Positions 1,182 to 60,212 of a stretch of 64,000 bases of DNA are shown piece after piece (positions within the stretch are counted from its first letter, which is position 1; every line of letters starts with the position of its first letter). Source of the DNA: Diadema setosum (Eukaryota > Echinodermata > Echinoidea > Diadematoida > Diadematidae); NCBI GenBank assembly GCA_033980235.1, contig CM067070.1:26132627-26196626 (forward strand), read 5' to 3'. The position numbers and the translations under genes are program-made. A model generated the notes under the pieces. The model worked only from the letters and a program-made list of their open reading frames with translations. It ran no database searches and was not told where the DNA came from.

Positions 1182-1211
1182 TGGCACACAGGAGGTTTCC
1201 ACCATGGCACA
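1182..1211. repeat. Micro-palindrome insertion site 12
   Basis: Core CAGGAGGTTTCCACCA between perfect TGGCACA duplicates; the core is only partly palindromic. Confidence 0.6.
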
Positions 1212-1226
1212 TAAAGAGTTAAAGGT

Positions 1227-1608
1227 ATTACTTAGTATAAACAGCATACCTTTAAAGACACATTTTACCATTGGGAACAGTGATTTCAAAAATTTTCAAC
1301 ATATCACATTTGATGCACAGTATGTGTAAGTCAGTTGTATCCCAAACATCGTACCATGTCAAAAATTCGCAATAAAGGCTAAAATGTGAGGAGGTATCGC
1401 TATTTTGATCACTAAACCATAACTGCAGACGGTTTAGTCTAGAAGAATTCTTATGATAACTACTGTTCACATTTTGTATATCTAACAATACTTAACATTG
1501 ATAATACTGGTTCAAATTTTTACATTGGTCGTTTTTCTCCCTAACTCACATTTAAGAACTATTTTGAAGCACTAAAGCTGGGTTTTTGTTTCATCTGCAA
1601 ATGGTAAA
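1227..1608 (+). mobile_element. TTTACCATT family, copy A
   Basis: Non-autonomous element of about 345 bp core. Its left end reads TTTTACCATTGGGAACAG (1263) and its right end CTGCAAATGGTAAATA, so the ends are inverted TTTACCATT. The core contains the family words TAGACGGTTTAGTCTAGAA and CATTTTGTATATCTAACAAT, seen in the other copies. TTAAAGGT stands at about 1219 and a mutated ATAAAGGT after the right end. It lies against half of an AAGTCC element (1615-1908). Confidence 0.72.
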
Positions 1609-1614
1609 TAAAGG

Positions 1615-1908
1615 TAATATTATTCCCCCTGCGTTCTGAAAGAGGCAAGTCGAGTGTTCTTTTATCATGCGAGAAAAGTGAAAACATGTTCAATTTTCTT
1701 TATATTCTTTATATTGTTCTGCACAATATGTGGCATCACAAGGTTAGGTAGTCTTCTCATCCAGCAGTGGCTGAGCAGAAACTTCAAAAATTCATAACAT
1801 TTGAACGTATATTGTCGGATTTTCCTCAAACTCTCACGATGTGTTCTACAAATATTGCTGCATTCACTCAATCCACAATCATATCAAAAGATGGACTTGT
1901 CCTTTAAA
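1615..1908 (-). mobile_element. AAGTCC palindromic element, half copy
   Basis: Matches the right half of the copy at 56138-56710 (CATCCAGCAGTG, CATAACATTTGAACG, ATGTGTTCTAC, CACTCAATCCAC, ending GGACTTGTCCTTTAA). The left half is absent; a TTTACCATT element lies immediately upstream. Confidence 0.7.
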
Positions 1909-1953
1909 GCAACTCCGGGATCCCAGCGTCGGACAGGTTTGTGCAGCGAAGGT

Positions 1954-2108
1954 ATTAGGGAGCTTTAGATTTTAGACGCGCGGACGTTCAAAGAGAAAAA
2001 AACATGATCTGAGCGTGCGCAGTAACTTGACGTGCGCTATTGCGCACGCTCAGACCATGTTTTTTTCTCTTTGAACGTCCGCGCGTCTAAAATCTAAAGC
2101 TCCCTATT
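1954..2108. repeat. Near-perfect long hairpin, 68-bp arms
   Basis: Left arm 1954-2021 and right arm 2041-2108 are inverse copies differing at about two positions, with a 19-nt loop. Opens AGGGAGCTTTAGATTTTAGA and closes with the inverse. Young foldback element or long hairpin RNA source; no coding. Confidence 0.8.
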
Positions 2109-3938
2109 GACCGATTCTGTGACGCGCTATGTGTATTTTTGGCATGGGCAGCGCCATTACTGCGGTGTATCATCCGACCCCCCCCCCCTCTCTCTCCCCA
2201 CCCCTCTTACGCGCGCAGAATGAAAAACTGATGCATGGTTGTTTTAGCCAATGGGCATCTCGTACTGAGTGCGCGAATGCTTGCTTAGTGCGCGAACCTT
2301 TGTTACAAGTGCGCGATAAACATGTTGCCCGTGGGGTGGGGGAGAGCGGGGGGGGGGGGGTCGGCTGAGACACCGCAATTTGAGCTCATGGCTGCGCCCA
2401 GTGCCATAAAATGTCTGCTGCCCTCAACGAACCCGAATCGGTCAATACAGGGGAAGGGAGGTGAATGGAGGAGTGGAGGTTGGCTGCATGGGGGTTGCAT
2501 TTCTTCAACGAGATAATGGTCATCAAACAGGGGGGTCATTTGCCTTGATTGACCGAAATGGGGGTTGAACTGGGCACGGGAGTTCGCCAAAGTGGTTTTA
2601 ATTATAAGGGACGGGCCATTGATTCAGTGCATAGAGCTACTTGAATTGCTTCTTGTCAATTACAGGCGGTACATTGGTCATAGATCTTCCCATCCATCGC
2701 CCCTACCCCCACCCCCACTTTGAAAATAAGCAAAGTAATATGTCTCTATCTCAGCAATTTTACAAAAATTGAAGGAAAAAAAAAACATGCAGCATAATGT
2801 TCTGAGTGAATGCGAACGATATGATATGAATCTGCAAAAGCTCAATCTCCAAAGCTGCCAGTGCTTTTAAAGGGTTGCATCTTGCAGATGTAGGCCTATT
2901 TGAATATTAATATCTGTTGCAAAGAGGCAAATATCGAAAAGCCGTATGAAAGGGCAATGTGGCGAAATATACAGGAAAAGAAAAGGAACGTTTGCTCCCG
3001 CAGACTATAGTCTTCAACGAAACGGGAAGATATGTCAGTAAACTAAACGTATGACAGTGATAGGGCAATAATCAATGTAGTACTAGTAAACTATCGGATC
3101 TCATGAAAAAAATATCCGCGCATTATTGCGATGACAACCAATCCCACTGTATTGAACGATTCAGTTGCAAGTAATGCTAAACGATGGTAAAATGGTGTCC
3201 CTACAGAACGTTTGCTTTGTCATTTGTTAAGAGCGAGCAAAATTATCTAGGCCTACAGAGGCTGGCGGTAAAGGGAGATTTAATGCACTTAGTGCGCAAA
3301 TTATGATGATAATAATAATAATCAAATGTGATGCGTATAAGTCATATAAAAGGGGCCGAATAATAATACCTAATCGATTCAAGAAAGTCATTAACCCGTA
3401 AAAAAGGCAGTAATTGTGTGTTAAGAATACCACGTATCCATCGCTAGATATAGTGTGGGTCCCCAGCCGCGAAAGATGCGCTGTAAAATGATGATTATAA
3501 TAATGCGGAGGAAAAAAGGGGGAAATTCTGAGAGTAGACAAAAAAAAAAAAAAACAACTTTTTTTTTTTTCACTTTCATCGACATCATACACTGGTAGAA
3601 TAGGATAAACTATATCATAACGCTATCCCTCCTCCCCCCCCCCCCAAAAAAAAGGGGGAGGGCTTCCGTTACTCAGCAATGATGGTTACTTAAGACAGAT
3701 TTCAAAGCTCAGAGGCGTTGTGTTCATCACAGGTGTGGGCATTATGTTTTTTTCTCTGTTTGTCTGTTTGTTCGTTCCATACGTGTTGACATGATAGATG
3801 AACTATACGTATACCGAAATGATAAGTGCAATGAGCAGGAAATTATGTATGTCGAAAATTTAGGGCGAACAACAACAGTAACAATACTTTCCATCATGTT
3901 TTCTTGTCTCGTCGGTACAATTTTTGGCAATACACGCT
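2109..3938. other. No gene seen
   Basis: 2109-2580 is GC-rich with C and G runs (about 2179, 2350). TAGGCCTA at 2891 and 3248. An A run and a T run nearly adjoin at 3541-3570. Confidence 0.6.
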
Positions 3939-3993
3939 GCCGGTGTCACAGGCGATCCCCCAGAACCCGGAACGGATCGCCTGTGACACCGGC
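3939..3993. repeat. Perfect 20-bp hairpin
   Basis: GCCGGTGTCACAGGCGATCC (3939-3958) and its exact inverse (3974-3993), with a 15-nt loop. Confidence 0.85.
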
Positions 3994-5232: not shown

Positions 5233-5265
5233 TTGGCATCATGGAGCTATAGCTCATGGTGGCAT
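5233..5265. repeat. Micro-palindrome insertion site 11
   Basis: Core CATGGAGCTATAGCTCATG between TTGGCAT and GTGGCAT (6 of 7). Confidence 0.72.
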
Positions 5266-6095: not shown

Positions 6096-6131
6096 GTATT
6101 ACCATGGACCTATATAGGTCCATGGTAATAC
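6096..6131. repeat. Micro-palindrome insertion site 1
   Basis: Core CATGGACCTA-TA-TAGGTCCATG between GTATTAC (6096-6102) and GTAATAC (6125-6131), a direct pair with one difference. Family member; see findings. Confidence 0.75.
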
Positions 6132-7108: not shown

Positions 7109-7141
7109 GCCGCACCAGGAAGGTCACCTCCCTGGTTGCAC
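7109..7141. repeat. Micro-palindrome insertion site 10
   Basis: Core CAGGAAGGTCACCTCCCTG between GCCGCAC and GTTGCAC (5 of 7 match, two C/T changes). Confidence 0.65.
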
Positions 7142-8990: not shown

Positions 8991-10600
8991 GGAACACAAT
9001 CAGGACTAATAGCACACTTCGTGTACAGACGGAGTAAGTTTGAAAGTGTGTCTCATGGCGAGCCTTAATCCCCACAGGACCCCACCATAAGAGGCTATTG
9101 ACATTGTCTGTAACCATGGCAACCATGGTCCGAAAGACCTTATGACTCGAAATGGAGCGTTTAAGAAGAAGAGGAGCGCACGAAACTCTGACGTGATTTA
9201 CATTCGTCGCGTTATTTAGAGAGATGACAACATCGAGAAGGATTGTGACGTCGACATGCTCATTTTTTAACCCCCTCCCCCTCCACTTTTAATCGGTTTA
9301 GAGCGTTATTCCTAATCTAAGCTTACCATAATAACAAAGGACAAAATGCGGGGATCTGGGTTTTTTAATGTAATAAGATCAACCATACATGCGTTTGTCC
9401 TAAAATTCGGTCAAAGTACGAATCGTTAATCTTCTCAACTGCTCCGCAATGCTCCACATATTGCAGCAAATAATCTCCGTCCTCTATTCGCTAGGGGCAA
9501 ACACATACGTCGACAAAATAAATATGGATTGTATTGACGCAGATAACGCGTTGATTAAATCGGAAAACGACACGCCTGATATCGCAGCCCGAACGCCCGA
9601 GGATGGCACCGAACACCCTGGACGCCTGAGCCCCGAACGCCCGAAAGGCGTCTCGCGTGCGCGCCTGTGCCCGACTTTGGACTTCGACTGAAATAACTTT
9701 GAACGTCATTTTATGAGAGTGACGTTAGGAAGGGGGGAGGGGGTGGGGAGGGTACTGCAGGCTTGGAAGAGGAGAGGGGAAAAGATGATGATAACACATC
9801 AGCCATCAAGCAGGGAGGTAAGACCCTCCTTGATATAATAACTCACCTAGACAAGACTCCATCCTTTTCATCACCGCACGGAAGACGGACACCTACCAAA
9901 CCACGGAATAAAGTGCGTTTTCACGATCAATGCGTTCTCCCGACAAGTTATCAACGCACCTCAACGGAACATTACCTACACTTACTTATCTTTATACAAT
10001 GTTATTCATGTTTAGCATACTAAGGCTTGCACATGTGTGCGCATTCATCGCAATAATCCAGTCGAACGCTGTGACATTTTGCCATAAATCGCATTGCCAA
10101 AACGGTTAGACACAGACAAGGTCATACATTTTAAACTTGACTGCACGCGCTATCCATCATATTGATTTTCATTTAGATGAAAGTTACTATCATGCATGCT
10201 GTAAAGCCAAAATTTATTACGATTCACTGTTATCCTGATGTTATCAAAATGTATCATGAATCAAAAGGAGCCAATATCGTCCCAAATTCGGCCAACGGAA
10301 TCTGCGTGAAATTTAATCAGTTCTGGACGATTATTTATTTTCATTTTCCACCGGTCTCCCGGGCATGATGAAAGTCGTAAATCCTCCTCGTCAGATGGAC
10401 ACTAAAAAAAAAAAAAAATAAATAAATAAATAAATAAAAATTAATACCTTTTCACTGCCGGTCAATGATTAACGGCTCGAAGAGTGACAGGATTACGGCA
10501 GGCCCGTGGAAGCCACGATGTCCAACACTACTAATGAGATCTGGCGTCGGAAGTAGGTCCATGAAACTACAACTGACAACTCCGTGGTAGGACCATATTT
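8991..10600. other. No gene seen
   Basis: A GC-rich patch at 9575-9680 repeats CCGAACGCCCGA. An interrupted palindrome CAGGGAGGT...CTCCTTG at 9811-9832 lacks a duplicated flank. (AAAT)n near 10404-10440. Confidence 0.55.
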
Positions 10601-10924: not shown

Positions 10925-10968
<44 letters not shown>

Positions 10969-11849: not shown

Positions 11850-11851
<2 letters not shown>

Positions 11852-17680: not shown

Positions 17681-18610
17681 ACGTGTTGTCATCGTTAGGT
17701 TAAAAAAAGCACGTTAGTCGATGGTGGCCCAGTTACGTAGTGAAAGGAATTCAACAAAATATGAAGAGAATCCAATAAATCAGTGAATTTCCAATCACGA
17801 TGAAAGCGAACTTTACGTACTTCCTACACATGATAGAGTGAATGACATACTATTACCCTGATACTATTTGCCAAATACACGTCAAAGGAAAGAGTATTTT
17901 TCTGAAAACTGAAACTCTGTCATTAATAACTTCAGTCCCTTTCCCTCCCCTCGGGAAAACAAAAACTCATTTGATGCTAACGTTAATCAAACGCTTAAAA
18001 TGATACCGATAATATTACGGTCTTCTTCATCCACGGTAGCCCCTTCAGCATTTTCCTTCACAATAACTTCTACACTGTTCTGCCAAAGGACCCTGTCATT
18101 TTTTTGTTCTTAATTACCCCAGCGTTGCCAAGTACCCATTTACACACTTGGGTCGAGAGGGACTACAACATTTTGTCCACGAACGTACCTTCTACATGTT
18201 CAATTGAACTTACGTTTGAACTAACAAAACAAAACAAAACAAAACAAAACAAGCTCACCAAGCAAAATAATGAAAGAAAACTGAAACCAGAACTCTTTTT
18301 TTTTTCAGAGTATCTTATCTCTGCAGTTTAGACTCTGAAGTGAAAACACGTGAGTACAGCTGACATCATCTCAATCATTGTTTCGAAGAAAAATGTGTCA
18401 GGGTTCAGATCAACAGATTTCGAGAAGTGATGAGCCGATGTGATGTTCATCAACAGCGTGCCATGTTTTGATAATAGAGTGTTATTGTAATTTACCTTGA
18501 TTGAATCGTCTTCAAACACTGTTCTCGAAACAAGGAAGTGAATTTTAACTGGAGTGTATAATTGAGTGTGTATCTCTTTGCATGCATGGAATAATACAGA
18601 AAAAAAAATA
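17681..18610. other. No gene seen
   Basis: (AAAAC)n at about 18228-18251. Confidence 0.55.
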
Positions 18611-19025
18611 GGGTGATGTTCGTTATTCCGAAGGTTCGTTATTCCTAAGGTTCGTTATTCCGAAGGTTCGTTAATCCGAAAATGAAATAGGGTTCGCTAT
18701 TCCGAAGGCTCGTTTATGCGAAAATGAAATAGGGTTCTTATTTCGAAGGTCCGTTAATCCGAAAATGAAATAGGGTTCGTTGTTCCGAAGGTTCGTTGAT
18801 CCGAAATGAAATAGGGTCCGTAACGAACCTTCGGAATAACGAGCTTTGTGTCATTTTCGGATTAACGAACCTTCGGAATAACGAACCTTATTTCATTTTC
18901 GGATTAATGAACCTTCGGAATAATAAACCTTATCACATTTTCGGAATAACGAACATTCGGAATAATGAACCTTCGGACTAAAGAACCTTCGGAATAACGA
19001 ACCTTCGGAATAACGAGCTGTAACC
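18611..19025. mobile_element. Foldback element of ~16-bp units, copy 1
   Basis: Left half is a degenerate tandem of TTCGTTATTCCGAAGG-like words; the right half is the same in inverse (CCTTCGGAATAACGAAC). Starts GGGTGATGTTCG, ends CGAGCTGTAACC. No coding. Possible 8-bp flanking duplication AAAAAATA / GAAAAATA, A-rich and so weak. Confidence 0.75.
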
Positions 19026-26801: not shown

Positions 26802-28174
26802 TATTTGTGTGTGTTTTTGTGGGTGATTTTTTTTTTTTTTCAAATCGTAAGAATTAGATGTATGTCTGCTTTCCGTCAGCGTGAAAATCTGGCCATCGAT
26901 ATCACTGCTCGACAGAAACAAAACACTGAGAGGTAGTCTGGCTTCCAGACCATCTGCTGTACTTTGCTTCCCAAACTACAGATATATTGGCGCCCTCTAC
27001 CGACATTCTGTTTTATGTACCCTACCTGTAAATACTAGCTACAAAGCTGAAGCTGAACAAAATTCCTGACGGGGATTTCCGAAAGCAGGATCCTATCCGA
27101 GTCCGGCCAGCTTAACCGTTGTACTGTACAATTACCCCTCGCTACTGTCTGGGTCTCTAACTTTCGTATATAAATACAAAGTACGCTGTGCCAATCTTTA
27201 ACGACATTTCTACCATTCTCTGTTCGTTGGATGTTGCCTGTTTTAATTAGACACAACTTGAACATGGACTGAATGCACGCTTCAAATTACCGGCGGATCC
27301 ATTAAACTGTAGGCACAAGGATTAATTTCCTGCAGCTGATGGGAATACTCCATGGTATACATCCTCTCACTGGATTGAAATCAAGGATAATTCCAATCAT
27401 TACCCGTCATTAAGCCTTAAGTTTGCTGCGTGATTTGCGGGTAGACAGTTAATGGCGTGTTTGCAAATATGGCAATTAGGGTAATAATAAATAATAGCTG
27501 CAGGGAGGTACGTATAACCACGAAGCTAACGTAGCTCCATGGTATAACCATATAACTGTTGTCATCACTAGCAATGAAAAGCAATAACAAATAACAACAA
27601 GCAAAATTGGATGAAATTGTATAAATGAGTGGTCCTGACGCAAAAAGTACGGTGAAATGTTAACAGCATTATGACTAAAATGCACCTAATTAGACCACCT
27701 CAAACACACAAACACTGTGCAGACCAAGGTCGTTATATCAAGGTCAGTTTTAACACCATGGACATCACGTTTTCTCCGTAAGTTAATAATTGACGAAGAT
27801 ACAATCACCGTTCTCAGGTCTTCGATACAGACATCGAATCCCAAACAAGAAAAAGGTGGCTCGAAGAGAGTTGCTCAATCTAAACTCCATGGCAAGTCGT
27901 TGAAAAGCAACAAGTTCTCACTTCACCAAGGTAAGCACTTGGTCTAACAATTCTTTATTGCTTTCAGGTGCTAAATCGCGGTCATATTTTGCAATCGGTT
28001 GAGTTTAACAAAGTCATGTTCGAGGGAAATAATGCCAGAAAAAATAATAAAACAAATAGCCTGTTGGCAAGAGAAAAATCAAACTACCTTTCGTTTTTTT
28101 CGTGATGACGGCGAAGATGTCAACAAGATCAAGTTTGATAAAAGAAAGTTACGTATATTCTAAAGCTCATAATG
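26801..28174. other. No gene seen outside site 5
   Basis: Plain unique-looking sequence apart from the micro-palindrome at 27512. Confidence 0.5.
27512..27548. repeat. Micro-palindrome insertion site 5
   Basis: Core CACGAAGCTA-ACG-TAGCTCCATG between perfect GTATAAC duplicates. A half core CAGGGAGGTAC stands just upstream of the left duplicate (27501-27511). Confidence 0.8.
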
Positions 28175-30364: not shown

Positions 30365-30422
30365 GTTTGACCAGGAAGGTGAACTCCTTGGTTTGACGAT
30401 GGATTTAGCTCCATGGTTTGAC
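30365..30422. repeat. Micro-palindrome stacked site 6 (three targets, two cores)
   Basis: GTTTGAC occurs three times (30365, 30391, 30416). Between them lie CAGGAAGGTGAACTCCTTG and GATGGATTTAGCTCCATG, two different degenerate palindromes. Half cores flank on both sides (GCGCCATG before, CAAGGAGGG after). Confidence 0.85.
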
Positions 30423-30808
30423 CAAGGAGGGTAGAGCAGCGAAACCGACACTCTGTCTGGCAAGCAGATTTTCAAATATTGTTCGGGGGCCTTTGAAAAA
30501 GACTATCGGCAGGAAAATAGAAAATCGATAACTCCTCGTCACAGCTAACGCCTCTCACTCCGAGTGGTCACTTTTCAAATGTGAAATGGGAGACACGTAT
30601 GGTGTAGTCAGCGGTTTCGAGAAACGCACTTCAGAGAAGACTTCACACTCATCGCATCACACTCATGAATAATTCATGATCATTCATGTTTGATTACTAA
30701 AGAGCAGCAGAAAGGAGGATTTACCAGTCAATATTTCGACGCGTGGATACATAAATATGAAATGTAGGCCTATACCACGGCAGGTCCTTGTGTACACTAA
30801 AGTGCACT

Positions 30809-30865
30809 CGTGGAGCAAGGTAGATCCATGGGTGGAGCAAGGAGGTTATACCTCCTTGGGTGGAG
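30809..30865. repeat. Micro-palindrome stacked site 7
   Basis: (G/C)GTGGAG three times (30809, 30831, 30859). Cores CAAGGTAGATCCATG, then CAAGGAGGT-TAT-ACCTCCTTG. Confidence 0.8.
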
Positions 30866-31138: not shown

Positions 31139-31516
31139 CAAAGCGCAAACAATAACAATTGTAATTAATGATTAGCAGTATTCATGCATGGTTGTACAAT
31201 TATAAATAGCAAGAACCTTTACATATAACTTCTGCTAGTTTTTGCCATGAAATGTTATCAGTACTAACCATCCATATGTTCTGGTTGAATCTCATTAAGT
31301 AGAGCAAAAATCCAACTGATGCACAATGACAAGTTTCATCCACATTAGATAAACGCAGTGACAATGAAATGAAATGAAAGAGAGAAGAATCACATCTGAA
31401 TATTTTACGCGTATCATAGAAGAGATGATATAATAATGACATAGGCTTGAGAGGAATCGCCAGGGGTTGATCGACCCATGAAATCGCAAAGTCTTAAGCC
31501 CGAATTCACGAAGGTG

Positions 31517-34036: not shown

Positions 34037-34078
34037 GATCTAATCATAAAGGTACCTGATCTAATCATGGAGCTCCAT
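34037..34078. repeat. Micro-palindrome stacked site 9
   Basis: GATCTAAT at 34037 and 34058, with cores CATAAAGGTACCT and CATGGAGCTCCAT. A half core AAGGAGGTACTC precedes. The third flank, GAAGTATT, matches 5 of 8 bases. Confidence 0.72.
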
Positions 34079-34556
34079 GAAGTATTATGTGCCCAAAGGA
34101 TATCTGGGCTCTGCTCAAGGCAAACAAATACAACGAATATAGGCAAATTGTGTCGAAATATTGTACTAATTACAGCAGCGCGGAGACAGAACAGCAGAAC
34201 ATGACTGATGTTCATTCTTCTTTTGAATAATTAACGAGAAACTATATACACTGCCGTAGGGAATTATTATTTCACGAGAGATTTTCCCTCTATTGCTTTC
34301 TCTATCACTGAGTGAGGCTGGAAACAAGCAATGAATATAAATCGGTCACAGAGTCTGTTACGACAAGAACTACATGTAGCTCAATTTAAATAACTTCTCA
34401 ATCTTAGTTCTTTATAGCACAGCCTCCCTGTATGTAGACATCGTAATTATTGACTACTTTCTATTCTTCTTTGTGAAGAATTGGTAAGAAACCACACACT
34501 CTGGCAGCAGTATGCAATCTTTTTTTTTTTTTTTTTTTCACCCGGAAACCTTTCCC

Positions 34557-34840
34557 GGGTGCTGTTCGTTATTCCGAAGGTTCGATATTCCGAAGGTTCG
34601 TTATTCCGAAGGTTCGTTAATCCGAAACACGCAAATTCCCTATACCTAGAGATTCGTTAATCCAAAAATGAAAAACGGTTCGTTAATCCGAAAATTTGTG
34701 GCGTTATTCCGAAGGTTCGTTATTCCGAAGATTTTTGTTCATCCGAAAATGAAATTCGGAAAAACGAACCTTTGGAATAAGGAATCTTCGGACTGAAGAG
34801 CCTTCGGAATAACGAACCTTCGGAATAACGAGCTGTAACC
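34557..34840. mobile_element. Foldback element of ~16-bp units, copy 2
   Basis: Same units and ends as 18611-19025 (GGGTGCTGTTCG ... CGAGCTGTAACC). Shorter and more decayed. It ends exactly where a separate palindrome begins. Confidence 0.73.
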
Positions 34841-37247: not shown

Positions 37248-37282
37248 ATTACAGCAGGAAGGTGGGACCTCCCTGATTACAG
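37248..37282. repeat. Micro-palindrome insertion site 8
   Basis: Core CAGGAAGGT-GGG-ACCTCCCTG between perfect ATTACAG duplicates. Confidence 0.82.
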
Positions 37283-38893: not shown

Positions 38894-38930
38894 GATATAA
38901 CCATGGACCTATGTAGGTCCATGATATAAC
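38894..38930. repeat. Micro-palindrome insertion site 2
   Basis: Core CATGGACCTA-TG-TAGGTCCAT between perfect 8-bp duplicates GATATAAC. Confidence 0.83.
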
Positions 38931-42007: not shown

Positions 42008-42601
42008 TCATAAATCAAATCTCCATTTTTTGAAATGTAAAGTAAGCTTATTTCTTTTCTTAGCTAAATAATACTCTGTTTCTTTTTGCTCCTTAATGAA
42101 ACTCTTAAAAAAATCAACAGTTGGTACTTCATTCCTAAATTTACAAATATAAAGGTAATATTTTACAACTAATACAAGGTATGTTAAAAACTGATCTGAT
42201 AATAAACCAAATAATTTTTCAAAATTGGAGAGCTTAAAATTATTAATGTGGATTTCTATTATGTTTACTACATATCTCCAAATTGGTATAACCTTCTCAC
42301 AATCGCAAAACAAATGAACCATAGTCTCTTCCATTTTCCCACAAAATGTACAGTTTGGTGAGTCTTTCCTTTTAATTTTATACAAAAAAGCATTCAAAGC
42401 TATGGATTTGTGAAAAACTTTAAAATAAAAAGAGCGTAACCTAGTATCAATAGTGCAAGTAAAATTAATCTTGTGTACATTATCCCAAATGATATCATCA
42501 GGGACTGTTATTTGACTTTTCCAATATTCATATCTTTTCTCAGGGACATGTAGCACATTTAATATTTTGTAAGCATGTCTGGGTACTTTTTTTCTGGGCA
42601 T
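42008..42601 (-). CDS. LINE ORF2 segment 3: C-terminal zinc-knuckle domain
   Basis: C-terminal end of ORF2, about 197 codons, in a different frame from the RT segment and overlapping its last codons. It carries the zf-RVT pattern of L1/Tx1 ORF2: ...LRSFYFKVFHKSIALN followed by CTFCGKMEETMVHLFCDC, giving a C-X2-C-X8-H-X2-C spacing at residues about 84-99. The domain is thought to help RNA binding in this LINE group. The frame shift from the RT part sits at the homopolymer near 42587-42593. The ATG at 42601 is fortuitous: this segment would be read as the end of ORF2, not as its own protein. The stop at 42008 is followed by about 730 bp of 3' UTR. Confidence 0.85.
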   Translation of the reverse strand: MPRKKVPRHAYKILNVLHVPEKRYEYWKSQITVPDDIIWDNVHKINFTCTIDTRLRSFYFKVFHKSIALNAFLYKIKRKDSPNCTFCGKMEETMVHLFCDCEKVIPIWRYVVNIIEIHINNFKLSNFEKLFGLLSDQFLTYLVLVVKYYLYICKFRNEVPTVDFFKSFIKEQKETEYYLAKKRNKLTLHFKKWRFDL

Positions 42602-44771
42602 TCAAAATAATAACCAAAGAATCACAAATATCTAAATTATTCAATGCAGTATCGTCCAACCATCCATTAGGAATATTCCTTAATAAGAAATTGAATTTTC
42701 TTCTATCTGTATGGGGAATATCAAAATCTAAAATCAATTCTTCAAATAATTTATGACCAGGGAGGGGTGGGTTCAACAAGTCGGAAATTCCCAAAACATT
42801 TTTTTCGTACCAAGTTTCATAATAGAAATATTTTTTTGATTTTGAACGAATCAATCTATTAAACCACAGCACTTGACAAGACCCAATTTCAGAAAATTTA
42901 GAATCATAGGATTCTAAAGTGGCATATTCTCTATAAATATACCAAGTACGTAATGACTCAGCCACTTGTGAGTTTTGCAAAGATCGCAAAATTGTTTCTG
43001 GGGCATATGCTTTCCAAAGAATCTTGGGGTCTCTATGAAATTTCTCTAGGGCCAATAATTCAATAGATTTCCAGACAGACTCATAATTTTCATCTAACAA
43101 ACATTTAACCCATGTCATTTTTTGAGCAAGTGCAAAAGCCCATGGATCAATCATTTTAAGACCACATTGAATATAGTCATTATACAAACATTTTCTTTGA
43201 ACTCTATCCCTACCACCATTCCAAATAAACTTAAAAAAAAGACTATTCAAATCATTAAAAAAATTTTGAGGGATTTTTATACTAAGCACAGAAAAAAGAT
43301 AAATTATCTGTGGCAAAACAAGGGACTTTATTACGCATACTTTACCAATTAAAGAGAGATTCCTCATCCGCCAGCAGTTTATAGTCTGTGCCATTCTTTT
43401 TAACTTCTCTTTATAATTAAGATCATATATCAAACCCAAATCCAAAGAAAAATTAACCCCCAAGGATTTAAAGTCAGAGGTTTTCCATGTGATTCCTTGA
43501 TTTCTCAAAGGAAAATCTTTACATCCCCTCTTTGAACCAATCCAAAGTGCCTCTGTTTTGGTTAAATTAATCTTACATCCAGAATATCTACCAAACCTAT
43601 TCAAAATATCAAACAATACACCAAAAGAATCTCTAGTTCCATCTATAAAACATACAGAATCGTCAGCAAATAAAGAAATCTTCACTTCATGATTATTTAT
43701 CTTTATCCCATTCAACTGCTCATTCTGTCTTATTAATAAGGCCATGACCTCAATAACAAACAAAAATAAATATGGAGATATGGGGCAGCCCTGAAAAATA
43801 CCTCTTTGCATGGATATACGATTGGTTAAAAAACCATTGTTTAGAACGTAAGACTTCCGTTCAGAATATAATGTCTTTATCCACTCAATAAATGTATCTC
43901 CAAAATTAAACTGTTTTAATGTCTGAAAAAGGAAGTTATGATTAACACTATCAAATGCCTTTTCAATATCAAGTAATACTATAGCTCCAGGAACTTCATT
44001 AACCTGAGTATACTCAATAATATCAAAAATTAATCGAACATTATGACTTATATTTCTGCCTTTTAAAAAACCAGACTGATCTGAATGAATGAGAGAGTGC
44101 ATAAATATTTTAATACGTTCTGCGAGACATTTTGCTAATATTTTATAATCAACCGTCAATAGTGTAATAGGACGATAATTTTTTATCAACAATTGGTCCT
44201 TATCTTTTTTAGGAAGAAGAGTAATAACACCATTTCTCTGTGATACAGACATCATTCCATTTTGTAAGGAAAAATTATAAGAGTTCATCAACATGTCACT
44301 TATGTCAGGCCAAAATACTATGTAAAATTCAATAGGAAGTCCATCAAATCCAGGAGTTTTATTAATTTTCATCGATTTGATAACATCAAATATTTCTTGT
44401 TTAGATAAAGGTTTTTCCAAAATTTGTTTTTCATCATCAGTCAATTTTGGAATATTCAAATCATTGAACAAATCCTGACGTACATTTTCATCAGCCATAT
44501 CTTGATGCTCAGGTTTGGAATACAGTTTATTATAAAAAGCATGTATTTCTTGCAAAATCTTGTCAGGGTCAGAAATCAAGTTATCTTTTTCATCCTTCAT
44601 TCTACTAATCGTTTTCTTTTGCCAAGATCTGTTTTCTAAATTACAAAAATACTTTGAATTTGTTTCTCCTTCTTCTAACCACCTTACCCGAGATCTTATA
44701 ATCAAACCTTTAGTTTCAAAATCATAAATTTTATTTAGATTATCTTCTAATTTTTCTAAATCTAATAACAA
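42540..44771 (-). CDS. LINE ORF2 segment 2: reverse transcriptase (frameshifted both ends)
   Basis: Central ORF2, 743 codons read from 44771 (a TTG, not a real start; the frame is a continuation of the endonuclease segment). Non-LTR reverse transcriptase copies the LINE RNA at the nicked target. RT motifs in order: NKTPGFDGLPIEFY (about 137-150), KNYRPITLL (197-205), the DQSGFLKGRN block (231-240), LLDIEKAFDSV holding the first catalytic Asp (about 268), FQGCPISPYLF (326-336) and FADD (368-371), the catalytic box in its usual LINE form. A thumb-like region follows, with the W-rich segments found in L1/Tx1 ORF2. The frame ends near 42540, next to a T run (42587-42593 on the plus strand), after which the protein continues in the frame of the next segment. 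Catalytic residues are all present. Confidence 0.93.
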   Translation of the reverse strand: MLLDLEKLEDNLNKIYDFETKGLIIRSRVRWLEEGETNSKYFCNLENRSWQKKTISRMKDEKDNLISDPDKILQEIHAFYNKLYSKPEHQDMADENVRQDLFNDLNIPKLTDDEKQILEKPLSKQEIFDVIKSMKINKTPGFDGLPIEFYIVFWPDISDMLMNSYNFSLQNGMMSVSQRNGVITLLPKKDKDQLLIKNYRPITLLTVDYKILAKCLAERIKIFMHSLIHSDQSGFLKGRNISHNVRLIFDIIEYTQVNEVPGAIVLLDIEKAFDSVNHNFLFQTLKQFNFGDTFIEWIKTLYSERKSYVLNNGFLTNRISMQRGIFQGCPISPYLFLFVIEVMALLIRQNEQLNGIKINNHEVKISLFADDSVCFIDGTRDSFGVLFDILNRFGRYSGCKINLTKTEALWIGSKRGCKDFPLRNQGITWKTSDFKSLGVNFSLDLGLIYDLNYKEKLKRMAQTINCWRMRNLSLIGKVCVIKSLVLPQIIYLFSVLSIKIPQNFFNDLNSLFFKFIWNGGRDRVQRKCLYNDYIQCGLKMIDPWAFALAQKMTWVKCLLDENYESVWKSIELLALEKFHRDPKILWKAYAPETILRSLQNSQVAESLRTWYIYREYATLESYDSKFSEIGSCQVLWFNRLIRSKSKKYFYYETWYEKNVLGISDLLNPPLPGHKLFEELILDFDIPHTDRRKFNFLLRNIPNGWLDDTALNNLDICDSLVIILNAQKKSTQTCLQNIKCATCP

Positions 44772-44827
44772 ATGTTTATTTTTTGAGACATCCTCACCTA
44801 ACTGCGAGTTAATTTTATGAATTTCAT

Positions 44828-45775
44828 TTATAAGATGTTCCTTTTCTTTATTCCTTTCTTTTTTTTCCTAGCAAAATACTCAATACTAGTTCCAGTTATA
44901 ACACACTTCAGGGCATCCCATTGAGTATTAGGGTTACAATCAGACTCTTCATGAATTTGTTTAAATTCAATTATTTTTTCTTTAATCAATTTAATATAAT
45001 CTGCATCATGGTGTAAATAATGACAATTAAGCTTCCAATAACCTCTACCCCTCGAAGGAATATTATCATTAAAATGAATTGAGACTACTGAATGGTCCGA
45101 CTGAATTCCTGGAGAAATTTTAGATTTAATACAGTTTCCAATGAAATTGCTTGACACCAAAACATAGTCCAATCTAGATAACACCTGAGGTGTCTTTTGG
45201 TGCCTAGTATACTGTCTTAGTGTTGGGTGAAAATGTCTCCAAACATCAATCAAATTATATTCTTCAATAATATCAGAAAATATATTACTAACCCTAACAT
45301 TGGAATGTTGCTGACGAGTACCCTGATAATCTAAATGGCTTACTACCGCATTAAAATCTCCACCTATAATTAAAACAGAATTATCAAATTTATCAATTTC
45401 TGCAAAAACTTCTAATAAAAAATCTGGGTCATCTTTGTTTGGGGCATAAATATTTACTAATGTCACAGGTATATCATTCAGAACAGCGTTTAAAATTATG
45501 AATCTACCATTAACGTCATAAAATGCTGCATTTTCTTTAAAAACAACTGAGTTTCTTACTAGTATTGCTACACCCCGACTATTCGAAGAAAAACTTGCAA
45601 ACCAACATTGTTCACCCCATTGGGATTTCCAAAACTTCTCATCATTTTTGGCAGAATGAGTTTCTTGTAGTAATATTATATCAGATTCAGTATTTCGCAA
45701 ATAATGACAAATCTTTCTTCTTTTTACAAAGTCTTGTAGACCCCTACAGTTGAAAGTACTTAATTTCACTACCAT
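44828..45775 (-). CDS. LINE ORF2 segment 1: APE-type endonuclease (frameshifted at its end)
   Basis: N-terminal part of ORF2. I choose the ATG at 45775, which gives MVVKLSTFNCRG; the frame stays open upstream to 45808 only through a GTG. The enzyme nicks target DNA to start target-primed reverse transcription. Apurinic-endonuclease signatures are in order: FNCRG (N9), LQETHS (E38), NIYAPN (Y110), GGDFNAV (D140, N142), SRLDYVL and the closing SDHSVV (D227, H228), so the catalytic set looks complete. The frame ends at 44828, shortly after a run of eight to nine A/G bases near 44860-44870, and ORF2 continues in another frame. A one-base slip in that homopolymer explains the break, either a real mutation or a sequencing error. 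Confidence 0.88.
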   Translation of the reverse strand: MVVKLSTFNCRGLQDFVKRRKICHYLRNTESDIILLQETHSAKNDEKFWKSQWGEQCWFASFSSNSRGVAILVRNSVVFKENAAFYDVNGRFIILNAVLNDIPVTLVNIYAPNKDDPDFLLEVFAEIDKFDNSVLIIGGDFNAVVSHLDYQGTRQQHSNVRVSNIFSDIIEEYNLIDVWRHFHPTLRQYTRHQKTPQVLSRLDYVLVSSNFIGNCIKSKISPGIQSDHSVVSIHFNDNIPSRGRGYWKLNCHYLHHDADYIKLIKEKIIEFKQIHEESDCNPNTQWDALKCVITGTSIEYFARKKKKGIKKRNIL

Positions 45776-45808
45776 TGTTCTATAAACAAAAACACACAAA
45801 AGTACCAC

Positions 45809-46611
45809 CCCGGATCACAGAAAAAACATAAAGTGCATTGGTTGAATGTCACACATATACATAAAACTAACCAGATTGTAATAATCTGAAGTATACAATG
45901 AAAAGTTGAATAAAAACACATCTTGTCACAGAAAAAAAAAACACACAATGAAAAATATGTATAAAAAAGAGAGAAAAAGAAAACAAATACGGTATTATCA
46001 AGGCAAAAAACTGAAGAGAGCAAGAGCACAAGTAGTCAAGACTTCAAATCAAGCAAAACAGTCTTGACAAGTGCAAAATCATGTAACCAAATGAACAAGT
46101 TTGGCACGGAACAAAAAAAAAACCAAATCAGCTGGAAAATCAAAAGGTAAATACAGTATTGTCACATACATAGATCCAAAGTAATTACACTCCAGATTAA
46201 ACCAAAAGAGCCTTACCATTAAAAAAAAAAAAACAAAATTATAACCTTTTATAATTAATGAAATTACAATTCTACATGTGGTTTATATTAAACTTGAACT
46301 ACATGGACGAAAAAAAGGAGAAATCAAAAAAATGATACTAATACTAATACCCCAATCTCGACGAAGAATCGCCCTAGACATGACTTTAAAACTACATACT
46401 GCATAAGTAAATTAAAAAAAAATAACTTTGGATTTATGAGAATGCAATCTACACATACATAAAAGGAAAAATTATTCCTCATAGTAAGTACATACAGCTG
46501 TACATGTAACTATTACACACTACTCCTGGAATTATCTGAAAAGTGAAAATGCAATTGCAATGACCACACGATATAGCAAATCAGTTCCCATCAATACAAT
46601 TTTAACATGTA
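45809..46611 (-). other. LINE inter-ORF spacer, first part
   Basis: A/T-rich, no ORF of interest. With the MITE and 46788-47207 it makes a 1.4-kb gap between ORF1 and ORF2, which is long for L1/Tx1 elements. The pieces may include other insertions I do not recognise. Confidence 0.6.
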
Positions 46612-46787
46612 CAGTGGTCTCCCATTATAATGAACATTGGCACGAGGTCTCATCACAACAAGGTAATCCCCGTAGACCCACATTGCAATCCTCCATTGCA
46701 CCGCATTATTTTGGAATGCTAACACAAGGTTTAACCACAACAAGCACACCTTCCTGGCCCAAAAGACCTCGCCACGAGAGTCCACTG
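46612..46787. mobile_element. Pogo/Tigger-like MITE nested in the LINE
   Basis: A 176-bp element with TA on both sides and inverted ends CAGTGGTCTCCC and (from the right) CAGTGGACTCTC, continuing into ATTATAATGAACATTGG. CAGTGG-type ends with ATTATAA and a TA duplication fit pogo/Tigger-type DNA transposons. No coding. It lies between LINE ORF1 and ORF2 and may partly explain the unusually long spacer. Confidence 0.75.
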
Positions 46788-47207
46788 TATCTTAAATAAC
46801 TAAGCAGCGAATTAGACCCAAAAGTAGAAAAAAATAATATTTTGGAAAATATACTCGTGCCATGGCAACACAATAAAATACATACTAATGTACACTGTAC
46901 AAGTATACAAATTATATGAAAAATAAAACGTACAACACTTATACAATACATGTATGTGGTTTTAAAACTTAACATCCATCTACTTTTCTACGAATACATG
47001 TCACATTGATCAAACAATGAGAAAAACAATTAAAGACAAGTTAGAAAACTTTGGAACCAAAAATTGTAAACCAAAAAAGTTCTGCCATCAATATTGAAGG
47101 AGTCACTAACCTACACAAAGTGTTTGAAGTGTAATAGGCCTACATGTCTCAAATTCGTAAAAGTCAGAGCTTATTCTTTATTTTGATCATGAGAGATCAT
47201 GTCCTCA

Positions 47208-48005
47208 CTAAACAAAGACAAGCTTTCCTTCCTTACTCCTGTAAGCTAGTTTTGCTGGGTACAAGAAGAAGGGCTTCCTTCCCGCGTCTTTCAACTGCTT
47301 TAGTTGGTCCATTTTTTCCTTTCGCATCTGTAGAATGCGTCGTGAAAAGTCCTCTGACACGTAGATCTTGCTTCCTCTGAAGGAGCCCTCGGCTTTAAGC
47401 TTGGATATGCACGCTTTTCTCACCCTCTCCTTGGTCGCATACGACGAGAAAGCGACGTGGATAATTCTTGGCTTCGTATTCCCTGTACCACTCAGCTCGC
47501 GTACTGTAGGGGTGCGGTGACACCGTTCGATAGCATACTCATCCACACCAACAAAATCGGTAAGGAACGACTTCACGGTTTCATAGCAGTTCTCCCTGGG
47601 AACTTCTGGGATACCATGCAATACCAGATTACTCCGTCTTGCACGATTTTCTAGGTCATCGATCTTCAACAGCATGTCATCCTTCTCCTTCTTCAACTTT
47701 TTCACTTCCTCTGTAACTGTATCCAGCTGGATACAGCAAGCACTGATTTTCTCCTCGTTGGCATTCGTTTTTAGCGCTATTTCTTCGAGCCTGTTTATTA
47801 TCAACGAGTCTATACGCTCCTCCAGCTTGTAGAATTTTTCTAGGAAGGAAGCGAACCAGTCCGGCGGGGGCGAGCTAGCTGCGTCGCCCGGCCCAGCGGG
47901 CTGCGACACCATCGGAGTGTCGTCAACTACGTCAACGGCGCTCGCTTTCTTCGGCGGAGCAAATTTTCCCTTTTCAGGGGTATCAAGATGTCGTTTCATT
48001 GACAT
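47208..48005 (-). CDS. LINE ORF1 protein (L1-type, coiled coil plus RRM-like domain)
   Basis: ORF1 of the LINE, 265 codons from the ATG at 48005 (the open frame reaches 48017, but only through a TTG). L1-type ORF1 proteins bind the element RNA and act as chaperones in the RNP. Residues about 1-50 are basic and Pro/Ser-rich, with the KRH and PPKK clusters. About 52-122 is a heptad-like stretch rich in L, E and K, consistent with the trimerising coiled coil. At 123-134 comes RRSNLVLHGIPE, a strong match to the start of the L1 ORF1 RRM (Transposase_22 family), followed by the ERCHR motif and then KPRIIHVAFSSY, the usual conserved strand. The C-terminus (about 205-265) resembles the C-terminal domain with its basic helix. 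The frame is unbroken and of normal family length. Transcription would come from the short LINE 5' UTR just upstream. Confidence 0.87.
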   Translation of the reverse strand: MSMKRHLDTPEKGKFAPPKKASAVDVVDDTPMVSQPAGPGDAASSPPPDWFASFLEKFYKLEERIDSLIINRLEEIALKTNANEEKISACCIQLDTVTEEVKKLKKEKDDMLLKIDDLENRARRSNLVLHGIPEVPRENCYETVKSFLTDFVGVDEYAIERCHRTPTVRELSGTGNTKPRIIHVAFSSYATKERVRKACISKLKAEGSFRGSKIYVSEDFSRRILQMRKEKMDQLKQLKDAGRKPFFLYPAKLAYRSKEGKLVFV

Positions 48006-48153
48006 GATTGCAATCAAACTGTCCTACAAATGAATATTGACAATACTACTCACTGTATATAATCACCAAGACTTCTCTCCAGCAAATATTTGGTAAAATA
48101 TAGCGAACTAAGTGAGAACCATGCTTTCAGAACAAAGGGTGAGAGCGCCCTCT

Positions 48154-50610: not shown

Positions 50611-50630
50611 TACGTATCATAGTTTATTGT

Positions 50631-51375
50631 CACCTCGTCTACAGCCACTTTGTCTATTTTCCAATTGGTCTACTGGCATATCGTCTATTACCGATTAGTC
50701 TAATACCCATTTGGTCTACATCTCGTTTTGTCCAGTACCCATATTGTCTAATAGCCACTTTGCCCACTACCCGTATTGTCTAATACCCAACTCGTCTAAG
50801 GAGCATTTCGTCTACAAATCAATTGATCTAATAGTCAAATCGTCTACACTCACAATGTCTATTTGCCATGTCGTCTAATATTTATTTTGTCTACTACTAG
50901 TTAGTCTACTCCCACCTCGTCTACAAGTCATTCAGTCTACATTCACTTTGTCTAGTTATCATATCGTCCAACCCTAGTTTGTCCATACCCAATATGGTCT
51001 ATACCCATCTCGTCTACTCCCAATTGGTCTACTCCCAATTGGTCTACTCCCAACTGGTCTACTGCCAACTGGTCTACTCCCAACTGGTCTACTCCCAATT
51101 GGTCTACTCCCAACTGGTCTACTCCTAATTGGTCTACTCCCAATTGGTCTACTCCCAACTTGTCTACTCCCAACTGGTCTACTCCCAATAGGTCTACTCC
51201 CAATTGGTCTACTCCCAACTTGTCTACTCCCAATTGGTCTATACTCGTCTATACCCAATTGGTGTACTCCCAACTGATATAATTTTACTCTCAACAATTT
51301 ACCCAAACTGATCATTTCCATCTGGTCATGGTAATAATGAATATACCACTTTGTCTAGTGTCCAGTCCGTCTCAC
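50631..51375. repeat. 15-bp tandem array, left (TU-like)
   Basis: Unit close to TACTCCCAACTGGTC. Homogeneous at 50990-51260; the left part (50631-50990) is diverged, keeping only a GTCTA/GTCTAC word per unit. Its left edge, CACCTCGTCTAC, matches in inverse the outer edge of the array at 60468. The pentapeptide-like frame (GVDQL repeats) on the minus strand is an artefact of the 15-bp period. Confidence 0.85.
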
Positions 51376-51645: not shown

Positions 51646-51776
51646 GCGCATGCATGCCAGTTTGCAGGCACAAACCCTTGTTGGTCGTAAAGGAGTTTGC
51701 GCCAAGACTACTATATGCACCACTTCAGCACTGTCCCATAGGCCCTGTGTTGTAGCTTCTCCCAACAATGGTTTGT
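51646..51776 (-). repeat. SINE-like dispersed repeat, copy 1
   Basis: Inverse of 59986-60100: GGGTTTGTGCCTGCAAACT, ACGACCAACAAG and GGAGAAGCTACAACACAG (read on the minus strand). Ends show inverted ACAAACC-TTGTTGG words. Confidence 0.65.
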
Positions 51777-51811
51777 ACAACCATGGACCTACAGTAGGTC
51801 CATGGTACAAC
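51775..51811. repeat. Micro-palindrome insertion site 3
   Basis: Core CATGGACCTA-CAG-TAGGTCCATG between perfect 7-bp duplicates GTACAAC. Adjoins SINE-like copy 1. Confidence 0.83.
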
Positions 51812-56710: not shown

Positions 56711-58315
56711 GAAACCATTTTCTTTTCCTTGAAATTCCAGTACTAAAAGCCAAATTCTAAGATAAAACATAATAACAAAACAAGGTAAACACCTCATCAA
56801 AATTATATTGAGATAGAACTACAAATCTTGTTTTTGGATCTTTCCCTTTCCAGTCCTGGGGACTTGTTCCTCTGTTCACTTTAGTTGTCACATAACTTCA
56901 ATAATCGTAAAAAATACAACATTTGTCATAAACAGTTGGTTCAACTTGGAAAATGTAATAATTATTGTCATATTAAAAAAAAATCACATAATTTTGTTTA
57001 TGACTATACCACGTTGTACATGGAAAAACAACAACTAAGAATTCAAGAACAAGTGGTGCACCAGCTATAGGCATGTGGCCTTTTTGTGGAGTGTGATTAT
57101 TTGATAATTTTTTTTTTTTTTTACATTGTTTTTTTTAGATTGTGGACTAGGGCATGCATGAACTGCCACATGTATCACTTTGGTATCGAGGGAATTCTGG
57201 TGAGCTATGTATACAAAAGTCACTTCTGTTGTGATGATTTTGTAGATATTAAATGTATTAGAAAATATTGATAGATAGTGAAAAGGAACTGAAGTCTTGC
57301 CTTTCACTATCATATAACAATATGGTGTTAACAAACAATGTCACCTCCGAAACACAAGAAATAGTAACCTACATGGAAAGCTGTGATTGGTAAATCTTCA
57401 CAAATAATTTGCTTGTTGGAAATCAAGCTTCTAAGATGAAAGCATCTATATGTTTACTTAACTAAAGCAGGAGAATTGATATTGATTACAATGTTATATA
57501 TACAACAGATGGGTGTATTTTGTGCATTCTCATTGTTAAAAAGAGTGAAAAAATGTAAATTTGCCCTAAAACGTGCTGTCTAGTAATACAAAAAAGAGTG
57601 AGAGTGTGTTAGTTGATTTCTCCACTTTGAGACTTATGTTACTAAAATAAATGAAACCATTGGTGTACATGATATGGTTTCTCTTCAACAGAAATGAGCA
57701 AAAAATCTTGTTAACAGTGTTTTGTCACCTCCGAAACAGTAATTCTTAGTTTTTATTAGATCTTTTATTAATCTCTAGAAAATTCTCATTTCCTGTTGCC
57801 ATATTACTATTTTCATCCAAAAGAGATTCCTGTCAATTGGACAGAATCAAACAAAATTGCTTTGTCTTCGAGAAATTATCAAATATAATATGCTTGTTGT
57901 TTCGGAGGTGACAATTGTTTCGGAGGTGACAAGTGTTAACGGAAAATTGTAAATTGCTCCGAAATGAAAACAACAGGCTATATTTCTACTACCTTCCTTC
58001 AGAGATAATGTGAGGGGATATGTTACATTTTTGCCAATGTAATGTATAACCGATGTCAAGAATTAAAAAAAATCAAATACATAAATCTGTTGTCTCGGAG
58101 GTGACAGAAATGTTAACGGAAAAGTTACATAAATTTATAAATGCTCACCAAAAAATGATAAACTATTTGAATTAAATAATCTTTGGATCAAAGTTAAGTC
58201 AGATTGATTACTATTCTGTTTTGATGGAAATTAGCAAAGTTGAATTTCATAATTGTGAACAAGAGCTAACTCAAAAGAGGGGTTAATTGTTAACGGAAAA
58301 TGTCACCTCCGAAAC

Positions 58316-59221
58316 ATAAAGTTTGGACAATTTCAGTCTTTAAAGAAGACAAAGCAGAACCTGGTAAACATAATAGTTCTTAATGTTGGATACCTGTCTA
58401 TCACAAGAACAAAAATAATGAAAAGGAATAAACAATTTAATATGCTAGCTCTGACAAAAATACTATGTCAGAGTGAGTACACCAAAAGTGTTGGATTTCA
58501 AGCATGTAAGTGCCTGCCACATCTGAAAGAAAAAGAGAGGAAAGTTCATTAAGGTACCCAAGGTAGACACTATGGGTGGTAAGTTTATGAGAAAAAATAA
58601 TGCATATCTGTCAGTGTATAAGAAAGTTATACACCAATTAGTGCAAACACTGTGTTTTACACCACTGATTGTAAAAATGGCCAACCAGCAAATGATTTTA
58701 ACTAGTATAGAATAGAGAATTGCAATCAATTGCAAGTTATGATCAACTGCAGCATCCAGGAGATTTTACATTGATATCTATCAGTATCACAAGTCTTAAA
58801 AGATGTATGGATACATTCACTTTAGAAATGTATTGTTTTATCAGACCAATAAATAGGGAGGAATTTACCAAGAGTGAATTTGAAACACTGTCGGAACTTA
58901 CATAAGGAGAGAGATCAAACTAGGGAGAGAAGTTATACAGAAGACCATCTCTGACTCCACTTATTAAAAATTCCTCATAGAAGTAGAAAACCTCTTAGAA
59001 GTAAAATGTGTTTCTGGGACTGGTTCCTGCATAGGCACAAGAACTGTTCTTTGCTTTTCGGCATTGATTTTTCCAAAATTAAGGTTTCATTCAGAACCTA
59101 CACATAATGATATTAAAGGGTATTAGTTTTAGATTGTTATATAGGCCTAGGTTGGTACATTTACAATGAACCTAGGTTTGTGTTTACAGTATACCAGCGA
59201 GAAAAAGAAAAAATGTAGGTG
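58316..59221. other. No gene seen
   Basis: TAGGCCTA at 59142. No supported frame. Confidence 0.5.
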
Positions 59222-59575
59222 TTAAAGGATTGTAGTTTTGGTTGAGATGGTGATTCAGCTTTTGACTTTTTGCAAGATAGAAACTACTCGACATACTATT
59301 ATCAAACAGGAGTTAAAATTCTATTTGATGAAAGTCAGATTTGGAAATATCCAAAAACAAAGTAAAGCAAAATGATCCATATACAAGAAAATTCCCACAT
59401 TTCATTAGGACCACTTTGTTTTGGGATATCTCAACCATCTCAAATTTGATTTTCGTCAAACAAAATTTACTTCCTCGTAATACAATAGTATGTAGGCCTA
59501 TGCTTTTGATAGTCATATAAGGGGAATCTCATTAATTGTTACAAAAAGTTGAAACATGCCTTGAAATCTTGTTCA
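59222..59575. mobile_element. GGTATAG palindromic MITE, copy 6
   Basis: Left end TTAAAGGATTGTAGTTTTGG. The centre keeps GATATCTCAACCATC and CAAATTTGATTTTCGTCAAA; the far right end is decayed. Confidence 0.68.
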
Positions 59576-59985
59576 GAAAATAAATAATGCCCCCAAATAT
59601 CTCATTACATTTTAGTCATTTCATGGTTTACACGTGAATGAATCCACATTATTATGTCTGCATATGTTACTCCATGGTTTACAGAAGAGCCAGATACTGT
59701 ATAAGGGGGAAAGGTGATTGTACTGACTACTGTACTGACTACTGTCACCTGTACCCCTTGGAATTTGGTGCACTGGTATCCATGGAGGAAGGGTTGTCTG
59801 ACCAGTGTTGTTTTTATTTCACCCATGGACTGGTGATATCTGCCTAATCTGTTTCCCTAATTATCCAGTTATTGGGTGTTGCCAGGCAAGTCCCAATAGA
59901 TGGTGATGGACATTGGAAAGCAACTAATCACATGGGTAGAGGGTGGAGTTTGATTTTCACCGTGAGAAACTGTTTTTAGAAGTCT

Positions 59986-60100
59986 GTAGAAACCTTTGTT
60001 GGGAGAGGCTGTAGTGCAGTGGTGCGTGTATTAGTCTTAGCAAATGCAGACTCCTAATACGACCAACAAGGGTTTGTGCCTGCAAACTACATGCATGCAG
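59986..60100 (+). repeat. SINE-like dispersed repeat, copy 2
   Basis: Contains TAGTGCAGTGG (60012-60022), fitting the pol III A box TRGYNNANNNG, and GGTTTGTGCC (60071-60080), a weak B box with two mismatches. Ends are inverted ACAAACC-TTGTTGG. May be a tRNA-derived SINE. Copy 1 does not keep the A box exactly. Confidence 0.55.
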
Positions 60101-60173
60101 CGATCTTGGCGGGATCCCGAATGAGGAATTATCGAGTAATTTGATTTTCATTGCGTTTGGTACACTAGTGAAG

Positions 60174-60212
60174 GTACTAACCATGGAGTTTTGGTAGCTC
60201 CATGGTACTAAC
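60174..60212. repeat. Micro-palindrome insertion site 4
   Basis: Core CATGGAG ... CTCCATG (23 bp) between GTACTAAC duplicates (9 bp if the G is counted). Confidence 0.82.

Follow-up and report, generated by a model that had tools for sequence, protein, structure and literature searches.

Short palindromic cores between 7-bp target duplications in the sea urchin Diadema setosum: probable excision scars of longer DNA transposons, most likely of the P superfamily

The P element of Drosophila has the end CATGATG, leaves footprints in which bases of its ends are retained, and is found in double insertions that share a single target word. Other features of such elements bear on the sites described here. 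The P transposase cuts the second strand 17 bp inside the element end (PMC7776569), so that broken donor DNA retains end bases, which is the mechanism that these sites would need. The ends of the zebrafish Pdre2 element start with CATACC (PMC10983969), and the Drosophila element Galileo, also of the P superfamily, makes duplications of 7 and sometimes 8 bp with the consensus GTATTAC or GTANTAC (PMC4168063, PMC2775673). The 64,000-bp stretch analyzed here (hereafter the window) lies on contig CM067070.1 (C12) of the Diadema setosum genome (885,718,524 bases in 96 contigs), and it contains a family of short palindromic cores, each starting CA and ending TG, that stand between two copies of a 7-8 bp word. 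These sites are quite probably the excision scars of longer cut-and-paste DNA transposons, for which the P superfamily (Galileo/P-like) is the most likely source.

Like those of Galileo, the duplicated words are 7 and sometimes (60174) 8 bp long, and the left word at 6096 is the Galileo consensus GTATTAC. Galileo has long inverted repeats, whereas those of the related miniature inverted-repeat transposable element (MITE) described below are 29 bp, and the passages on Galileo drawn on here (PMC4168063, PMC2775673) contain no such footprints. The Drosophila P and zebrafish Pdre2 elements resemble the sites here in the CATACC start of the Pdre2 ends (PMC10983969) and in the end bases retained in P donor DNA (PMC7776569), but their duplications are 8 bp, their end sequences are different, and the arms of the cores found here are mostly 7-12 nt.

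A sequence-only reading of the window had described about twelve loci of this kind. That family is real, the seven loci cited for it are all present in the sequence as described, and 17 cores are now catalogued, collected by a scan for exact 7-bp words around hairpins, a CA...TG scan and a half-site scan. Ten of the 17 have an identical 7-8 bp pair, four a pair with a one-base difference and one a pair with a two-base difference, and two have no clear pair. In window coordinates, written as word-core-word and with no strand assigned to any, the loci are:

1182-1211: TGGCACA-CAGGAGGTTTCCACCA (1189-1204)-TGGCACA, an atypical hybrid core located in the right-hand inverted repeat of a MITE of the TTAA type
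5233-5265: TTGGCAT-CATGGAGCTATAGCTCATG (5240-5258)-GTGGCAT, one mismatch
6096-6131: GTATTAC-CATGGACCTATATAGGTCCATG (6103-6124)-GTAATAC, one mismatch
7109-7141: GCCGCAC-CAGGAAGGTCACCTCCCTG (7116-7134)-GTTGCAC, two mismatches
9811-9832: core CAGGGAGGTAAGACCCTCCTTG, without a recognisable flanking pair
27512-27548: GTATAAC-CACGAAGCTAACGTAGCTCCATG (27519-27541)-GTATAAC
30365-30422: chain of GTTTGAC, core (30372-30390), GTTTGAC, core (30398-30415) and GTTTGAC, the word thus present three times, with an end-like CAAGGAGGG at 30423
30809-30865: chain of CGTGGAG, hybrid core CAAGGTAGATCCATG (30816-30830), GGTGGAG, core CAAGGAGGTTATACCTCCTTG (30838-30858) and GGTGGAG, with GTGGAG present three times
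31454-31487: GAATCGC-CAGGGGTTGATCGACCCATG (31461-31480)-AAATCGC, one mismatch
34037-34079: chain of GATCTAAT, core (34045-34058; 14 bp when the word is taken as ATCTAAT), GATCTAAT and core CATGGAGCTCCATG (34066-34079), the second core without a right-hand word
37248-37282: ATTACAG-CAGGAAGGTGGGACCTCCCTG (37255-37275)-ATTACAG
38895-38930: ATATAAC-CATGGACCTATGTAGGTCCATG (38902-38923)-ATATAAC, with four similar cores elsewhere in the genome
51775-51811: GTACAAC-CATGGACCTACAGTAGGTCCATG (51782-51804)-GTACAAC
60174-60212: GTACTAAC-CATGGAGTTTTGGTAGCTCCATG (60182-60204)-GTACTAAC, an 8-bp word

In a stricter test, cores were chosen on the motif alone, blind to their flanks and with at most three mismatches in total. 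This selected 72 cores in the window. Nine of them are flanked exactly at their boundary by a 7-bp pair with no more than one mismatch, and the 60182 core with its 8-bp word is additional to these; moving the right-hand word over offsets from -6 to +11 bases gave 0 or 1 pairs at every one of the other 17. Shuffling, which the sequence-only reading had proposed as a check on the direct pairs, was run on the window, and the nine pairs compare with a mean of 0.09 (maximum 1) in 100 order-2 shuffles that yielded a mean of 74.84 cores. A separate half-site scan found 11 pairs less than 50 bp apart in the window versus none in 10 shuffles. In a ranking of 257 hairpins of all kinds, those among the top rows that have exact flanking words were this palindrome family, three tandem satellites (near 22.8, 51.0 and 60.6 kb) and single rows of other hairpin types at 42145 and 59154. 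These are the marks of target-site duplication: a short identical word on both sides, at the exact boundary and above chance. The words had been said to be different at each locus; they are locus-specific, but they are not unrelated to one another, as a GTNNNAC bias is present. That motif is matched by five of 12 words versus 204 of the 64,000 window positions (0.3%), in a post hoc test in which 7109 was entered by its right-hand copy GTTGCAC (one of the five, from the pair with two differences) and 60174 was excluded. Successive cores share one word in the chains at 30365-30422, 30809-30865 and 34037-34079.

The longer element that such scars call for was found, for one core type, in a scan of all DNA sampled (numbers with the prefix L denote stretches sampled from the genome). 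The scan, which had no shuffle control, looked for cores of up to 8 kb that begin with CA, end with TG and lie between two identical 7-bp words; it gave 21 rows longer than 30 bp, among which only a 757-bp row keeps its ends alike past the first ten bases (CAAGGAGGTTCGAGARATGGA). This element (L008:5753-6509) has the ends CAAGGAGGTTCGAGAAATGGAG and CAAGGAGGTTCGAGAGATGGAA, which align as inverted repeats over 29 bp; it is flanked by perfect copies of GCTGCAC, and its first nine bases (CAAGGAGGT) are the start of one core type. A genome-wide search with it gave 40 main alignments (40 scored of 2,444 first-look candidates); with the query included, 30 of the 40 span positions 1-757, and the others are 87-93% identical. 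Both ends were inspected in ten further full-length copies, those with the best scores, and nine have perfect 7-bp duplications and one a duplication with one mismatch. Like MITEs of DNA transposons generally, it occurs in repeated copies and has inverted ends and a duplicated target; unlike them, the window sites are wholly without an interior.

The target bias is also similar. In 11 words of the 757-bp MITE, G, T, A and C occupy positions 1, 2, 6 and 7 in 7, 8, 9 and 8 cases, respectively, and in eight footprint words from outside the window (a set without the decayed L003, the less convincing cores of the sample and those found later in L055 and L056) in 6, 7, 6 and 7; the full GTNNNAC is present in three of the 11 and three of the eight. 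Since the 757-bp element begins with the same nine bases and inserts in the same way, the CAAGGAGGT core starts are the outermost bases of a transposon. More generally, cores of the CAAGGAG type carry on their outside 9-12 bases that are the tips of 29-30 bp ends on longer transposons, so that at these sites both words appear to have been kept with the end bases of a known longer element between them, as in an excision footprint. The earlier suggestion that the words arose as target-site duplications by staggered insertion gains from this, because similar GT...AC-biased 7-bp duplications flank long elements with the ends of one core type. The companion suggestion, that what inserted was the 13-23 bp core and nothing longer, is not supported, since the outer bases of one core type are the ends of longer transposons and the centres mostly differ between identical arms. 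The insert was most likely long and the core its remainder; for the CATGGASCTA type of core, a long insert may be proposed by analogy.

The anatomy of the cores is what joining of two cut ends would give. The arms CATGGACCTA are identical at six sites, with the centres TA, TG and CAG in the window and CA, AG and CG elsewhere; since CA and TG are one centre seen from opposite strands, the six sites show five kinds, in a small sample whose outside members were fetched by their similarity to 38902. The L026:3605 core (CATGGACCTACATG) is shortened on one side, 7+7 joins are present at 34066 and L022:5723, and unlike arms are joined in the hybrid core at 30816. In L056, the site GCCCTAC-CAAGGAGCTATT-AG-AATAGCTCCTTG-GCCCTAC has 12 nt that match the end CAAGGAGCTATTAAACACTGGAGTCACAAC at L054:232, about 9 kb away; to judge by the match, its arms follow one particular longer end (CAAGGAGCTATTAAACAC, complete at L054:232) beyond the bases shared by the family. 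Family-type cores in the long-element scan range from 14 to 30 bp, and the next larger row of the family is that of 757 bp; the rows of 31-756 bp are three L017 simple repeats and two with unlike ends. The longest core, 30 bp (L020), is within 2 x 17, although the paired arms are shorter than 17 nt. Together, the varied joins, the truncated, hybrid and 7+7 cores, the L056 arms that follow a longer end, and the size gap point to two cut ends joined by repair.

Sites of this kind also occur elsewhere in the genome. A 101-base query found four further sites with a CATGGASCTA core, three of which have clean words (GGTATAT, GTATAAC and ATATAAC) and one of which (L003) has none, its word having decayed. 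In a 200-kb sample drawn from 20 sites elsewhere in the genome (4,856 bases of it N), 5 of 246 cores were paired, two of them simple repeats that were dropped; L020 in this sample is an additional, longer core. Among the best-matching cores (0-1 mismatch), 3 of 15 are paired in the sample versus 7 of 12 in the window, which suggests that the window is locally rich in paired cores. Loci fetched for other purposes contain exact pairs, two in L055 and one in L056. The rows dropped before counting were two in L017 (GTAGTAC simple repeats), L029:8151 (a weak core in CA-rich sequence) and an AT-rich row at 6270 in L055. The palindrome pattern has no match in viral contigs. In literature searches on very short transposable elements, footprints or 7-bp duplications, none of the titles and opening lines of abstracts that came up describes these sites.

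A three-step history would account for the sites. First, a non-autonomous transposon several hundred bp in length, whose inverted ends of 29-30 bp start with CANGRASST, would insert at a GTNNNAC-like site and duplicate 7 (sometimes 8) bp; this step is seen for the MITE with CAAGGAGG ends and may be supposed for the family with CATGGASCTA ends. Second, its transposase would cut one strand right at the edge of the element and the second about 10-17 nt further in, like the P-element transposase; with such a staggered cut within the end, both broken ends would retain terminal transposon bases. Third, host end joining would trim and join these tails, giving word, left end, a join of 0-6 bp, right end and word; this order is what the sites display, and the joining process is the likely cause of it. 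The chains would be due to repeated insertion at the same word, with one footprint left by each element.

If the footprint reading holds, we would favor the P superfamily over any other source, with some reserve. The targets appear to be of the 7-8 bp GTNNNAC-like palindromic kind, in the form of a bias at single positions with the full motif in a minority of words, and such targets are not exclusive to P. The P-type RNase H domain has 48 matches in the D. setosum genome and none in 14 control genomes. One of the loci with such a domain, L054, has a left-type end alone upstream of it, and inspection of the remaining part of the 12 kb gave no right-hand partner. Two copies of the end CAAGGAGCTATTAAACAC, in direct order at L054:170 and L054:232, lie upstream of this transposase domain, and the end at 232 also has TGGAGTCACAAC in common with the end of the 757-bp MITE. 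L050 (C12:1768301-1773800) and L051 (C12:32947601-32953100) share 99.6% identity across 5,470 bases, and both have a match to the P-type transposase domain and a minus-strand footprint-like core near 3,250; they are either a recent duplication or a large element with its ends outside.

Several observations weigh against excision of longer P-like elements as the origin of the sites. No other core type is as frequent as CATGGASCTA among the clear loci of the window, and a long element with such an end was not found in the DNA sampled (window, flanks and sample scans), in which footprints also exceed long copies in number. The 38902 and L002 cores are the same sequence on opposite strands between different words, which copying of cores would likewise give. 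Perfect pairing of the outer arms extends over 7-12 nt in 12 of 18 cores and over 2-4 nt in the other six, not over 17; these 18 were hand-picked among cores with 0-1-mismatch words, exclude those at window 1189, 5240, 7116, 9811, 30398, 31461 and 34066, and were set out in 7-bp columns that hide the 8-bp word of 60182. A P-type (THAP9-like) transposase lies between a matched end pair with a 7-bp word at none of the six loci inspected of the 48 matches (L050-L055; L056 extends L054). All comparisons of sites are within one assembly from one individual, and of 15 joined "empty sites" searched for in the window only that of 1182 has an independent match. This core lies in the right end of a TTAA-type MITE (window 702-1224, inverted ends TTAACTCTTTATGTGCCACGTT), whose left inverted repeat (702-725) is without it. 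In the other 39 listed copies of that MITE (2,266 candidates, 40 of them scored) the alignment runs through the core, and the lengths differ by at most 4 bases, so it reflects one old event amplified together with the MITE, and the internal empty-site comparison at 1182 is weakened, since the core spread with its host. The foldback arm opposite 51775 is uninformative on an empty site, as the likeness ends inside the word.

Searches of the window for long elements gave little more. Of 16 end pairs of the family's type, five are more than 1 kb apart, versus 0-6 in shuffles; one of the five links two known sites and one uses an end of a known site. A wider search found no excess over shuffles outside the 51-kb satellite, and the window together with 40 kb beside it contained no full-length element, only three long rows whose ends are not alike.

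Four other explanations of the cores can be weighed. One keeps excision footprints, and so overlaps the P assignment, but derives them from another superfamily, of which hAT is the first candidate. GTNNNNAC targets are known for hobo-type hAT elements. Fungal hAT families with 7-bp duplications exist (PMC12730594), but in the Ds (hAT) footprints reported in PMC1978519 the flanking bases are altered, with cleavage at the flanking nucleotide, whereas here element ends stand between intact words. The sites do not appear to have the altered flanks, free of element ends, that hAT excision leaves, and an origin outside the P superfamily is unlikely, if still worth keeping in view.

Alternatively, the cores could themselves be mobile, as ultra-short hairpins of 14-30 bp whose transposase would work on a single strand folded on itself or on a pair of ends lying close together. 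Three findings are as this predicts: short cores stand between perfect duplications, a long CATGGASCTA-ended element was not found in the DNA sampled, and the 38902 core recurs on the other strand at another word (L002). It is nevertheless improbable, given five kinds of centre between identical arms in six sites, the hybrid and one-sidedly truncated cores, and the presence of one core type's ends, word length and similar target bias on the 757-bp element. That cores, once formed as scars, were re-mobilized as 14-30 bp hairpins is a slightly slimmer prospect still; if true, these would be the shortest DNA transposons known, and the chains on one word would be explained.

A history without a transposase, in which the interior of a long element was later lost when replication slipped or a deletion arose between its inverted ends, predicts the same anatomy of two ends and two words. 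Cores of 14-30 bp with no family-type element of 31-756 bp in the scan, except the 44-bp chain at 30365-30416, argue against this history, and we give it about as little credence as primary mobility of the cores. Chance pairs or tandem-repeat artefacts, which simple-repeat and satellite rows do mimic, are refuted for the family as a whole by nine exact-boundary pairs against 0.09 in shuffles and 0-1 at other offsets, and have virtually no likelihood.

Other repeats lie in the window. An inverted pair of 15-bp tandem arrays (50626-51276 and 60464-61060, about 9 kb apart) is foldback-like; the sea urchin TU elements resemble such array pairs. Arrays of a 16-bp unit (GTTCGTTATTCCGAAG) at 18605-19016 and 34564-34831 occur in both orientations and make inverted pairs, and a near-perfect hairpin at 1956-2106 has 69-nt arms (97% complementary) and a 13-nt loop. 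A degraded LINE on the minus strand at 42008-48023 has endonuclease, reverse transcriptase and an ORF1-like frame; its named relatives among the best 120 of 518 matches are from the sea urchins Strongylocentrotus purpuratus and D. setosum, and relatives were not found in viral and genome contigs.

If excision of longer transposons is the right explanation, small palindromes flanked by duplicated target words need not be mobile elements, and the genome of this sea urchin is a readable record of where transposons once sat and from where they departed. Each scar would then show which word was the target, which end bases were kept and how the break was repaired. The position of the cut and the end-joining habits of the germ line would thus be measurable from sequence alone, and Galileo-like behavior with a 7-bp, GTNNNAC-biased target would be placed in an echinoderm.

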